41,871 bases of DNA from Cyclobacteriaceae bacterium (lineage in GTDB: Bacteria > Bacteroidota > Bacteroidia > Cytophagales > Cyclobacteriaceae): assembly GCA_947457095.1 (NCBI GenBank), contig CANGUK010000009.1:1-41871 (forward strand). Direction: 5' to 3'. Shown piece by piece: positions 4,018 through 27,223 of the stretch. Each line of letters starts with the position of its first letter. The stretch's first letter is position 1. A program made the translations under genes and the position numbers. The notes under the pieces are model-generated. The model had not been told where the DNA came from. It searched no databases and was given only the letters and a program-made list of their open reading frames with translations.

Positions 4018-4083
4018 TGTTGGTTAAGTTGAAAAAACTAATCGAGCAAAACACGGAGAAAAGTAGGTATTCGTACTAATCAT

Positions 4084-4180
4084 CTCATCTGTTCCTGGCT
4101 TAATCCAGGAGGGGAGTTAGCACCTTGGTTACAGGTTGCTAAGACGTCGTAGGGCCCTTCCCTCGGTCTTTCTCGATAAG
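4084..4180 (-). promoter_or_regulatory. SAM-I (S-box) riboswitch ahead of the metH-metF operon
   Basis: Read on the minus strand, the segment starts CTTATCGAGA, continues CGAGGGAAGGGCCCTACGA, then TAGCAACC, AAGGTGCTAACTCC and a final GATGAG. This follows the conserved order of SAM-I aptamers: the kink-turn region, the AGGGA/GCCC core, the CAACC strand, GGTGCTAA.TCC, and the closing GATGAG. P1 can form between CTTATC (4180-4175) and GATGAG (4089-4084), 6 bp including one G-U. SAM binding is expected to lower expression of methionine-synthesis genes. No compact GC-rich terminator lies between the aptamer and the ATG at 4017. A possible switching element is reported under findings. Confidence 0.92.
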
Positions 4181-4186
4181 TTGCTG

Positions 4187-23633: not shown

Positions 23634-23963
23634 TTGGAAGATCACCGAGGATACGATAGAGATGAAATTTTCTCTAAAAAAGTAAAGGCAGGAAAAAGAA
23701 CTTATTTTTTTGATATCAAATCAACCCGTGGAAACGATTATTACCTGACCATTACAGAGAGCAAGCGAAGAACAGATGGTGACAGCTTCAGTTATGAGAA
23801 GCACAAAATCTTCTTGTACAAAGAGGATTTTTTCAAATTCGTCAATGCACTGAATGAAGCAGTAGACCACGTGAAAAACGATTTGCTTCCTGACTTCGAT
23901 TTTGAACAGTTTGAGAACGAAGAATCTGAGAACGAAGTAAATAATGACCTACGCTGGGAATAA
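23634..23963 (+). CDS. DUF3276 / PUR-alpha-like nucleic-acid-binding protein, TTG start
   Basis: This 109-residue protein of the bacterial PUR family (DUF3276) has DEIFSKKVKAGKRTYFFDIK, DYYLTITESKRR, HKIFLYKEDFFKF and ALNEAVDHVK. This is the beta-beta-beta-beta-alpha layout of PUR repeats, which bind single-stranded nucleic acid; the Borrelia relative is BpuR. The C-terminus is acidic. Translation must begin at TTG (23634-23636): there is no in-frame ATG before the conserved region, and the resulting MEDHRGYDRDEIF matches the expected family N-terminus. It likely acts in the cytosol as a regulator or RNA chaperone, which is inferred from family. A hairpin terminator follows the gene. Confidence 0.88.
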   Translation: MEDHRGYDRDEIFSKKVKAGKRTYFFDIKSTRGNDYYLTITESKRRTDGDSFSYEKHKIFLYKEDFFKFVNALNEAVDHVKNDLLPDFDFEQFENEESENEVNNDLRWE

Positions 23964-24042: not shown

Positions 24043-25137
24043 ATGCAGCGGTTTTTCGTCTACCTGATCCTCTTCTTTCTCACCTTCCTGGTGTTTGGTT
24101 GGTATTTTTCTGCTATTTCACTGTATTTGGTCGTATCGTTGATTTTGGCTGCCTTGCTTCGCCCCTTGACCAATCGAATCAATGAAGTACATATTATTGG
24201 TCAGCATATTCCGAGAGGCATTGCCATTCTTGCCTCTTATGCCGTGGTAGTTTCCATTGTATTCTTATTGGGACTCCTCTTTTTCCCCCTAATCAATCGC
24301 CAAGTTATTCTTTTGAGCGAGTTGGATTTGGATAGCATCTACCTGCAAATGGAAGTTCCTTTAGAGAAGCTCGAGCGATTTTTGATGAAGTATCAACTGA
24401 TTGAAAATAAGAAAGGAATCCTTCTGGAAGAACTTCGCCTTTCGGTGCAAGAGGCATTGAAGAAATTTGACATCGGCGGTTTTATATCGGGAGTCATTTC
24501 GGTAACCAGCAATGTATTTATTGGCACCATGGCGATTGCCTTTATTACTTTTTTCCTACTTCTAGAGAATGGCCTGCTTCGCAGAAATCTCCTGAACCTA
24601 ATCCCTAATGCCTACTTTGAATTGTCTGTAGCAACCTTTACTAAAGTTGAAAAACTCCTATCCAATTACCTTTTTGGGCTTTTGCTTCAAGTATTGGCTA
24701 TTTTCTTACTCGCAGCATCGGGACTTACCTTAGCCGGTGTAGAATATGCGCTGACTATTGCCCTTTTTGCATCAATTGCCAACCTTATCCCCTACGCAGG
24801 TCCGATACTAGGAACGGTTTTTGGCATCGTTGTAGGCATTTCCACAGGGGATTTTACCGCAGACAGTGAATACAATTTCTTCCTCTTTAAAATTATTTCT
24901 GTATTTGCGGCAGTTCAGATTACTGACAATGTGCTCCTGCAGCCGCTTATTTTTTCCAAATCCGTAAAAGCACATCCCCTTGAAATATTTGTTATTATCT
25001 TTGCAGGTGCAAAAATCGCAGGAATCGTAGGGATGATCTTTGCCATACCCGTTTACACCATTTTCAGAGTATCGGTCTTGGAATTTTACAGTGGGTACAA
25101 GTCCTATAAAATATTTAAAATTAAAGCAACGAATTAA
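24043..25137 (+). CDS. AI-2E family transporter-like membrane protein (second copy)
   Basis: This 364-residue protein is of the same family as the one at 16065-17165. It has paired N-terminal transmembrane segments (about 5-45), a third at about 62-90, a cytoplasmic or periplasmic helical loop with [19 protein letters not shown], and the conserved C-terminal [19 protein letters not shown] and [15 protein letters not shown]. The two copies are clearly diverged at the protein level, so this is not a recent duplication. Its TAA overlaps the ATG of ychF by one base (TAATG), indicating coupled translation. The substrate is unknown. Confidence 0.9.
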
Positions 25138-26234
25138 TGGCATTACAATGTGGCATAGTAGGTCTCCCCAATGTGGGCAAATCTACCTTGTTTAATGCGC
25201 TCTCTAGCGCCAAAGCAGAAGCAGCAAATTTTCCTTTTTGTACCATCGAACCCAATGTGGGTGTAGTCTCAGTTCCTGATGTTCGCTTGCAGGAACTTGA
25301 AGCCTTGGTCAATCCGCAACGTGTGGTTCCCACCATCATCGAGTTTGTAGACATTGCAGGACTTGTAAAAGGTGCCTCCAAAGGCGAAGGATTGGGAAAT
25401 AAGTTCTTAGCCAACATTCGTGAAGTAGACGCCATCATTCACGTGATTCGCTGCTTTGAAGACAACAATATCGTTCACGTCGCTGGTGGCGTAGACCCGA
25501 TTTTTGACAAAGAAGTAATCGACACCGAATTGCAGTTGAAGGATTTGGAATCCGTAGAAAAAAAGATTCAGCGGATCGAAAAGATGGCTAAATCCGGAGA
25601 CGCCAAAGCCAAGCGTGAATTGGAAACCTTGCTCCGATTTAAAGATGGACTGACTTCAGGACTAAATGCACGTGGCATCGAAGTAGATAAGGAAGATTTA
25701 GAAGCCGTTCGTGACCTTCAACTTCTCACCATCAAGCCAGTACTCTATGTAGCCAACGTAGACGAGGCAAGCATTCACACAGGAAACGCTTTTGTAACCA
25801 AACTTCGTGAAAAAGTAAAAGAGGAAAATGCAGAAGTCATTATCCTTTGTGCAGCCATCGAATCCCAAATCGCCGAATTTGACGACCCAGAGGAAAAGGC
25901 ACTATTTCTAGGAGAGTATGGACTCAACGAAAGTGGGCTTAATCGTCTGATTTATGGTGCCTACACCCTACTCGACTTGATCACTTACTTTACCGCCGGT
26001 GTGCAAGAGGTTCGCGCTTGGACGATCCGTAAAGGATGGAAAGCGCCGCAAGCCGCCGGGGTGATTCACACCGACTTTGAACGAGGATTTATCAAAGCCG
26101 AAGTAATTCGACTTGCAGATTATAAACAATTTAAGAGCGAGGCAGTTTGTAGAGATAATGGTAAAATCTCAATCGAAGGCAAAGAATACGTTGTCCAAGA
26201 TGGGGATATTATGCATTTTAGATTTAATGTTTGA
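25137..26234 (+). CDS. ychF: Ribosome-associated ATPase/GTPase YchF (OLA1 family)
   Basis: This 365-residue Obg-family P-loop NTPase has GLPNVGKST (Walker A, residues about 8-16), [11 protein letters not shown] (switch I), [17 protein letters not shown] (switch II) and LYVANVDE in place of the NKxD guanine-specificity motif. That replacement is the YchF/OLA1 hallmark and lets it prefer ATP. The C-terminal TGS domain (about 280-365) includes [15 protein letters not shown] and ends [11 protein letters not shown]. It binds ribosomes and is linked to stress and iron responses in other bacteria. Start and stop are unambiguous: the ATG overlaps the previous stop. The cas6-like gene follows, with its own candidate promoter at the end of ychF. 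Confidence 0.96.
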
Positions 26235-26306: not shown

Positions 26307-26332
26307 ATTGTTTCATTTTATTTTTCACCACC

Positions 26333-27223
26333 GTGAGAGTACGTATTATATTTTCCTTAAAAAACAAAGGCTCCTTTTTGCCTTTCCACCACCAGTACAT
26401 TCTGGCTCAATTCCTCAAAGGAGTCATCGTCAAAGGAGGGAAAGAAGAATTCTTCAACTACAATTTCTTCAATTTCTCAGGATTGAAGGGACAAACCAAG
26501 GTGAGCCGTAGTGGATTGCACTACTACTCCAGTTTGGTCACGCTTGTCCTTTCCTCTCAGAGTGAAGAGTTTATCGATTACTTGCTAGAACAAGTATTCG
26601 CCACTCCAAAAATTGAGTTGGGCAACTTAATCCTTTCCCCTGAGTACACCGAACTAGAGACTGAACCTACCTTGGAGGTTTCCAATAAGTTTGTCTGCAT
26701 CTCTCCTTTGGTGCTCATCACACCAGCATTCAATGAAGAAGCGGGAAAGCGATTCATCAACCCAGACAGTGATGAATTCTCTGATTTATTGTATGAATCT
26801 ACCTTGACTCGTATGGAAAAATCAGGCTGGTACACCCCAGAACAAATGGAATCTTTCTTCAAGTTTCAGGTAGTGCCCGATATGGTCTATGTGAACAAGT
26901 TAAAAGAACAGCAGAAAAAGTTTGCTCGAATCTACGCGGTCTACGACCTAGACGTAAAATACGAGGTACGAGGATATACACTTCCATTCACCCTTTATGC
27001 CGCTCCTGAAGTACAGGATTTTGTATTCAAATGTGGATTGGGTGCCTTTACCCATAAGGGTTTTGGAATGATGGACTTGGCCACGCATCCTGCTGACAAT
27101 AAAACTACTCCTTACAAGTTTAAAAGAGAAGGTTTTGTGCCTTACAAAGCCACTGGCGAACGAGTTCGACAAAATGTAGCCCCTACGGAAGAAGAATCTG
27201 AAGCCTCTACTGAGGAATTTTAA
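26333..27223 (+). CDS. Stand-alone Cas6-like RAMP protein (CRISPR endoribonuclease family)
   Basis: This 296-residue protein has the family layout: N-terminal strand RVRIIFSLKN, then LPFHHQYILAQFLKGVI (the Cas6 helix 1 motif, normally LP..Y.Y.L), FFNYNFFNFSGL (the F.FS element), FVCISPLVLITP mid-protein, and the C-terminal glycine-rich loop GLGAFTHKGFGMMDL. This supports a double ferredoxin-like RNA-binding fold. GTG at 26333 places the first strand right at the N-terminus. An in-frame TTG at 26303 adds ten hydrophobic residues and falls in the hairpin. No cas gene or repeat array is in the window. The helix with HxxG that carries the usual catalytic His seems to be missing between KGVI and FFNFS. 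The C-terminus is acidic and low in complexity. Cleavage activity is unproven. Confidence 0.8.
   Translation: MRVRIIFSLKNKGSFLPFHHQYILAQFLKGVIVKGGKEEFFNYNFFNFSGLKGQTKVSRSGLHYYSSLVTLVLSSQSEEFIDYLLEQVFATPKIELGNLILSPEYTELETEPTLEVSNKFVCISPLVLITPAFNEEAGKRFINPDSDEFSDLLYESTLTRMEKSGWYTPEQMESFFKFQVVPDMVYVNKLKEQQKKFARIYAVYDLDVKYEVRGYTLPFTLYAAPEVQDFVFKCGLGAFTHKGFGMMDLATHPADNKTTPYKFKREGFVPYKATGERVRQNVAPTEEESEASTEEF

Follow-up and report, generated by a model that had tools for sequence, protein, structure and literature searches.

A conserved Cas6-superfamily protein of Cytophagales that lacks the usual catalytic histidine segment and may act on RNA independently of CRISPR

A solitary gene of the Cas6 family, located at positions 26333 to 27223 on the forward strand of a 41,871-nucleotide stretch of Cyclobacteriaceae DNA (hereafter, the window), encodes a protein of 296 amino acids from a GTG start codon and has orthologues across the order Cytophagales. 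It is somewhat more likely than not, in our judgement, that this protein is a vertically inherited, CRISPR-independent RAMP of the Cas6 superfamily with a double-RRM architecture, which binds RNA without Cas6-type cleavage and limits its own synthesis. In the mechanism that we propose, a Cas6-superfamily RAMP protein would have become a chromosomal gene of Cytophagales. Its product would bind a specific cellular RNA in vivo through residues R2, R4, K52, K195/K196/R199 and R213, together with the glycine-rich loop and two predicted RRM domains. The bound RNA would be left uncut, the protein serving as a regulator or chaperone, and its synthesis would be held in check by a start codon that is only near-cognate and by an unstructured leader, rich in U and specific to this gene.

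Membership in the Cas6 superfamily is indicated by profile matches as well as by the modelled fold. The open reading frame that a preliminary description of the window had singled out was recovered at exactly the same coordinates, and its proposed Cas6-likeness, for which HMM searches had been suggested as a check, was borne out. In the profile search, the protein scored 68.1 bits against TIGR01877 (curated cut-off 58.65) and, with Pfam, 76.4 bits against PF01881 (curated cut-off 23; E 4.5e-21); it also matched the PADLOC Cas6b model (2.2e-26). The score against PF21350 stayed below the cut-off (15.5 and 27 bits, respectively). Among solved structures, 3ufc, 3qjj/3qjp and 5yi6 were matched by sequence using phmmer and the family profile, and PfCas6 (3pkm/3i4h) was also matched by the family profile, at a weaker score. 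An AlphaFold2 model computed with 46 orthologues reached a pTM of 0.85 and a pLDDT of 89, which rises to about 96 within the core and drops below 50 for the C-terminal residues 275–296. When this model was compared with the PDB by Foldseek, 3qjj, 5yi6, 3ufc and 3i4h came out on top, with target-normalised TM scores of 0.80–0.83. A double-RRM Cas6 fold is thereby predicted with high confidence.

The query protein matched 117 of 145 genomes of relatives, one of which (G131) gave weak matches only, leaving 116 true carriers. Within the window's genus, 71 of 72 genomes have an orthologue; in the survey of Cytophagales that the preliminary description had proposed, 22 families of the order were sampled and 13 of them contain the gene. 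A draw of 390 genomes from the order contained 183 that match the family profile, 176 of them at E ≤ 1e-78; the remaining seven, at E 5.6e-12 or worse, are probably other Cas6s. From the phylum, a draw of 395 genomes that included few from the order Cytophagales yielded nine matches of 395 bits or more, all from the window's own family, and otherwise nothing above 91 bits; the restriction to Cytophagales is thus one within Bacteroidota and by sampling. Contigs of GTDB supplied 116 related loci, the best 80 of which come from Algoriphagus, Belliella, Aquiflexum and their kin, including some MAGs labelled otherwise, such as Spirosoma fluviale.

This solitary family departs from other Cas6 proteins by a deletion. 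Codons 22–47 (26396..26473, forward strand) encode helix 1 and a shortened loop, from which the LHxxG/His46 segment of Cas6 has been lost. In the alignment columns of 46 diverse orthologues, Q21 and F48 are separated by 19–28 residues, with a mode of 26, as opposed to 38 residues, counted by hand, over the equivalent stretch of a canonical Cas6 (L158). The gap coincides with the ...AEFLHQQGYRANG... segment of Cytophagales Cas6s and, in the alignment with PDB sequences, with the stretch that ends in the catalytic histidine of PfCas6. LHxxG occurs in none of the 155 solitary-family rows, a number that includes duplicates of the same genomes from two sources, whereas among 31 other Cas6s of Bacteroidota 27 have it, the exceptions being L156, L157, L164 (which fits a looser form of the pattern) and an N-terminally truncated L181. 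The shortened segment and the loss of the AxxLHxxG helix, both of which the preliminary description had claimed from its own alignment, are therefore real features of the family.

The distribution of conserved residues, assessed at 90% in the diverse alignment, is equally uneven. None of the 26 positions in residues 22–47 is conserved, against 10 of 21 in residues 1–21 and 55 of 203 in residues 48–250; outside the deleted region, residues 1–250 thus contribute 65 conserved positions of 224. Given the complete lack of conserved positions in residues 22–47, the helix-1 half of the old active site is under no visible selection, while the glycine-rich loop and a set of basic residues do show it. 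Thirty-two residues are invariant over the 46 diverse orthologues, with R2, R4, K52, K195, K196, R199 and R213 unchanged in all of them. K195, K196 and R199 fall within the element KKFAR (codons 195–199; 26915..26929, forward strand), and R213 begins an R213-G214-Y215 triplet that is invariant throughout the solitary family. The C-terminal glycine-rich loop GLGAFTHKGFG (codons 235–245; 27035..27067, forward strand) has invariant glycines at 235, 237, 243 and 245, as do other Cas6s. Other residues are invariant in the family yet not in other Cas6s, namely His20-Gln21 (codons 20–21; 26390..26395, forward strand), K52-G53-Q54 (codons 52–54; 26486..26494, forward strand), which is part of a family-specific FSGLKGQTK element, E109 and D248.

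Because the helix-1/loop half of the old active site is both deleted and drifting, cleavage of the Cas6 type is unlikely. A missing histidine does not in itself imply an inactive protein, since the His-less Cas6 Sso1437 is an active RNA-cleaving enzyme to whose activity several basic residues contribute (PMC3652601). The main rival to our reading is accordingly framed around the invariant His20, a candidate alternative catalytic or RNA-contacting residue: the protein would be an active, sequence-specific endoribonuclease with a displaced active site, in which His20 replaces the lost His46-type residue, basic residues such as K52 or R199 stabilise the transition state, and the substrate is a cellular RNA as opposed to pre-crRNA. 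This is possible, though on the unlikely side. It is kept as the main rival because the histidine of RAMP proteins often follows strand 1 (PMC3150331) and because the catalytic histidines of TtCas6e and PaCas6f lie within helix 1 (PMC3652601). The first of these sources, a survey from 2011, locates the histidine motif immediately behind the first β-strand in many RAMP families, although one of its reviewers contested the conservation of that histidine; according to the second, Cas6 activity tolerates shifts of the active site. His20 is invariant in 60 of 60 family rows, and only three of 31 other Cas6s have a histidine there. The preliminary description had noticed the histidine pair of the N-terminal HHQY motif, which is indeed present, and had assigned it to helix 1, which does not hold: by DSSP, the helix of the model spans residues 21–35, and His20 sits just before it and just after β-strand 1. 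As for a histidine in the normal active site, the usual His-bearing segment is gone as judged by sequence, and His20 might reach the active-site cleft. His20-Gln21 may merely cap helix 1, and the rest of the helix and loop is unconserved, unlike the conserved lysines described for the crenarchaeal His-less Cas6 (PMC3652601). A loss of nuclease activity is a candidate reading, and the protein may, as the preliminary description suggested, bind or regulate other RNA.

Further evidence for our preferred reading, that of an RNA-binding and self-limiting RAMP, comes from the start codon and leader. The solitary gene starts with GTG in all 80 genus/family loci and, among the 45 order loci, with GTG or TTG in 35 and ATG in 10, if one takes whichever start codon is closest to the first residue of the alignment. 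A strict reading again gives GTG in 80 of 80 and divides the 45 into 33 GTG/TTG, 10 ATG and two TTA, the two TTA loci being rows with one extra residue. By comparison, all 10 other Cas6 genes and all 101 ychF loci with a readable start begin with ATG. A non-ATG start is not unique to the solitary gene, however, since the nearby DUF3276 gene (window 23634-23963, forward strand), unlike the adjoining ychF and Fer4 genes, starts with GTG or TTG in 92 of 92 loci; a U-run precedes it in one of the 92.

Just 5′ of the GTG start lies a U-rich leader element (26308..26327, forward strand), whose sole match with at most one mismatch was at the solitary gene in each of the seven genomes searched. More broadly, a run of at least five U residues between −35 and −8 precedes the gene in 55 of the 80 loci from the genus or family and in 26 of the 45 from the order (19 lack it), versus 31 of 183 background open reading frames; in the genus/family loci, such a run precedes the neighbouring AI-2E gene in 18 of 76 cases and the LuxC gene in 10 of 26. 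The heptamer ATTTTTT is present in 20 of 45 order leaders versus 16 of 183 background sequences (p 1.2e-7, uncorrected for phylogeny or for the number of k-mers). No conserved structure or covariation was found in 41 leaders (40 of the 80 loci plus the window). An autoregulatory hairpin in which UCUCA pairs with the start region was considered and set aside when the consensus fold picked another weak helix, in which none of the 41 sequences varies on both strands at once, and a structured leader RNA was likewise discarded, the window's leader folding no better than its shuffles (z 0.23). The leader is plausibly a gene-specific, unstructured and autoregulatory cis element, and self-limited synthesis is probable because a near-cognate start codon and a gene-specific U-rich leader have been kept together. 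As a separate observation, many Algoriphagus leaders (loci between L043 and L094) conserve a GCTTATYCACCC motif about 60 nt 5′ of the start codon, which is not found in the leader of the window and which resembles a DnaA box.

A broader role would make this domesticated Cas6 a global RNA-binding regulator that binds U-rich single-stranded leaders, its own first, controls the translation or decay of many mRNAs, and is autoregulated via its GUG/UUG start and U-tract. We consider this quite unlikely. None of the 145 genomes sampled has an Hfq match above the cut-off, and a different general RNA binder could fill that place. The same uniformity means that Hfq separates nothing, and it was dropped as a discriminating partner. 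Within the seven genomes searched, no regulon sharing the leader element was seen; the six matches elsewhere carry two mismatches, and a reversed control pattern matched once.

The genomic surroundings of the gene are of an ordinary kind. The Pfam scan of the nine open reading frames adjoining it in the window identified LuxC-like, Fer4, DUF3276, AI-2E transporter and YchF proteins on its 5′ side, and a T9SS plug protein, an ABC ATPase, GSDH and an ABC1 kinase on its 3′ side. A SAM riboswitch lies farther away, at window positions 4082-4182 of the reverse strand (RF00162, 77.1 bits, cut-off 44.4). The ychF gene (25137..26234) is the 5′ neighbour on the same strand, an arrangement shared by all 80 genus/family loci and 22 of 45 order loci, or 102 of the 125 loci examined. 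The housekeeping neighbourhood after ychF that had been described for the window is thus a recurrent setting. The distance between the two genes is 92-109 bases in genus/family loci and 53-465 bases in order loci, so that they need not share an operon. In the other 23 order loci, ychF falls outside the fetched flank of about 3 kb, and the neighbours there are varied.

This association invites an alternative in which the protein is a structural subunit that needs a partner, for instance in a non-CRISPR ribonucleoprotein or a ribosome-associated complex linked with YchF. The recurrence of ychF directly upstream on the same strand speaks for it, as does the behaviour of some type I Cas6 proteins, which stay on the processed RNA and scaffold a complex (PMC8616872). 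The order loci in which ychF does not lie in the flank, the variable gap after it and the lack of any single recurring partner gene among the 24 loci listed speak against it, and we hold such a subunit to be decidedly improbable.

The window contains no CRISPR-like array, and its nine scanned neighbours are ordinary genes, in keeping with the earlier remark that no cas gene or array lies nearby. Among all loci examined, arrays were found only in L165, L210 and L211, never in the locus fetched around a family gene. Arrays were sought in the window and the fetched loci, including L212 and L214-L217 (from G121, G047, G015, G100 and G108), and the CRISPR status of whole genomes was judged from cas genes, so that orphan arrays are possible. 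For INDEPENDENCE from CRISPR, the Cas1 test gave a PF01867 match in 57 of 145 genomes (56 over the cut-off). In the window's own genome, an Algoriphagus-like MAG of 2.47 Mb that is 84% complete, neither Cas1 nor Cas10 is matched and Cas3 does not exceed its cut-off; the suggested check for CRISPR elsewhere in that genome was made through these cas genes and, for arrays, covered the window and the fetched loci.

Across the sampled genomes, Cas1 was matched in 50 of 116 carriers versus seven of 29 non-carriers, a weak trend toward association (odds ratio 2.4, Fisher p 0.09). Cas10 (PF22335) was matched in 14 of 145 genomes, 13 of them over the cut-off; the model also fired in the control genome, E. 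coli, and may over-call, which does not weaken its absences. Among the 66 carriers without Cas1, one (G047) has Cas10 and another (G013) has Cas3 (TIGR01587) over the cut-off, and all 66 have helicase matches to TIGR01587 below it. Once these two are set aside, 64 of the 116 carriers lack a Cas1 match and have neither Cas10 nor Cas3 over the cut-off; the number falls to 63 if a sub-cut-off Cas10 in G017 is counted. Since over half of the carriers are without matching CRISPR genes, a non-CRISPR job on RNA is probable.

The same data bear on the notion of a crRNA-processing Cas6 that serves, in trans, arrays located in other parts of the genome, in the manner of type III systems, which often rely on a Cas6 supplied by another CRISPR locus (PMC12669027). 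The Cas1 trend noted above leans in its favour, and in several CRISPR-bearing carriers the solitary protein is the only TIGR01877 match. In one genome (G121), the solitary gene is some 11 kb away from a 21-repeat array (L211:7237-8762, contig C1), the nearest that an array was seen to a family gene, and some 9 kb away from a Cas1 gene; a scan of 10 proteins of this array locus identified Cas1 and did not turn up a Cas6. Against it stand the 64 carriers without such genes, the loss of the His segment, and three type III loci, from G045, G089 and G123, in which 10, 14 and 6 proteins, respectively, were scanned. Each of these loci carries its own, different Cas6 of the PADLOC PDLC01381 type (L209:4739-5401, L210:19317-19850 and L213:5434-6132), which TIGR01877 misses; the argument from sole TIGR01877 matches was rejected on this ground. 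Another Cas6 model, PF10040, gave no match in 31 genomes, though it fired in only two of its 14 control genomes. Surveys of Cas6 by TIGR01877 would consequently miss the PDLC01381 type and yet count the solitary family. By its PADLOC names, the locus of G045 resembles III-D, a subtype for which, according to PMC8616872, no cas6 homologue had been described. Processing of crRNA in trans is, on this evidence, very improbable.

The inheritance of the solitary gene follows that of its neighbour. Over the 101 loci that have both, pairwise protein distances of the solitary protein and YchF correlate closely (Pearson 0.91, Spearman 0.87). Published Spearman coefficients against 16S, a different measure from the ychF correlation, are 0.15-0.22 for CRISPR-linked cas4/cas1 and 0.47-0.53 for their solo forms (PMC5704561). 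The median dN/dS is 0.018, a rough value from 15 usable pairs of 150 sampled, the remainder being lost to saturated dS. In a tree of 29 family and 31 other rows, the family forms one side of a branch with support of 97/98, on a long stem. The gene thus looks vertically inherited and strongly constrained rather than a local relic. That it is the decaying remnant of a lost CRISPR-Cas locus, as the missing His segment and the absence of recognised cas genes nearby might suggest, is hardly credible and was rejected in view of the low, if rough, dN/dS, the 32 invariant residues in 46 orthologues, the order-wide presence and the gene's own conserved leader. A mobile or phage gene was also considered and rejected: searches for relatives gave 13 pattern hits in IMG/VR, none of them confirmed, nothing in phage records, and a single match in the plasmid collection, on a 602-kb Bernardetia replicon.

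Other Cas6-like proteins came to light in the course of these comparisons. A second, distant one without LHxxG (L156; G133:C1:2165550-2166329), from a genome with no Cas1 match and with Cas10 and Cas3 not above the cut-off, is possibly a second solitary Cas6 lineage, and family f19 comprises further second matches to the profile. A CRISPR-linked short Cas6b (L157; G125:C2:357461-358123), with Cas1 about 6 kb away, also lacks LHxxG, and in the tree its branch, a very long one, adjoins the solitary family.

Set against known systems, the solitary family shares with Cas6 proper (TIGR01877, PF01881; PfCas6 3i4h/3pkm) the double RRM fold, the C-terminal glycine-rich loop with four invariant glycines and an N-terminal P..HQ..L element. 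It differs in the missing LHxxG/His46 segment, in having no array or cas genes seen nearby, in its vertical inheritance and in its own set of invariant residues. The nearest known proteins are the archaeal Cas6 paralogues 3ufc and PH0350 (3qjj/3qjp), which rank at or close to the top in both the sequence-profile and the fold comparisons and which likewise have a Cas6 fold without the catalytic His segment. The locus name of 3ufc is PF0393. Compared by sequence and fold, these paralogues are archaeal (Pyrococcus), whereas the solitary family is bacterial, order-wide and, by the count given above, unaccompanied by Cas1, Cas10 or Cas3 in 64 of 116 carriers; 3ufc has been named a non-catalytic PfuCas6nc (PMC3652601). 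SsoCas6 (Sso1437) also combines a Cas6 fold with the lack of a catalytic histidine but is a CRISPR enzyme that relies on Lys25/28/51 and Arg231 (PMC3652601); compared by position, the solitary family has no conserved lysine cluster in helix 1 and its loop. The nearest known parallels are solo-Cas4 and solo-Cas1. These belong to different protein families and are not known to be RNA-binding RAMPs. They resemble the solitary family as cas-family genes outside CRISPR loci that are mainly vertically inherited and often reside in CRISPR-less genomes (PMC5704561), much as the solitary gene tracks ychF in its evolution and occurs without Cas1 in 66 of 116 carriers.

A search of titles and abstracts, which lay outside most subscription papers and bioRxiv, brought up no paper describing a CRISPR-independent Cas6 that is conserved in Cytophagales, nor was a solo-Cas6 of this kind found in the literature searched. 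Cas6 is generally taken as a marker of CRISPR, and a Bernardetia orthologue stands in RefSeq (WP_338790973.1) as a 'CRISPR-associated endoribonuclease Cas6'; for this reason, CRISPR components may have been overcounted in Cytophagales. If our reading is true, a widespread CRISPR-independent protein of the Cas6 superfamily would parallel, on the side of RNA, solo-Cas4 and solo-Cas1, and would show either how a maker of crRNA entered the RNA biology of the cell, or what a RAMP protein looked like before CRISPR.
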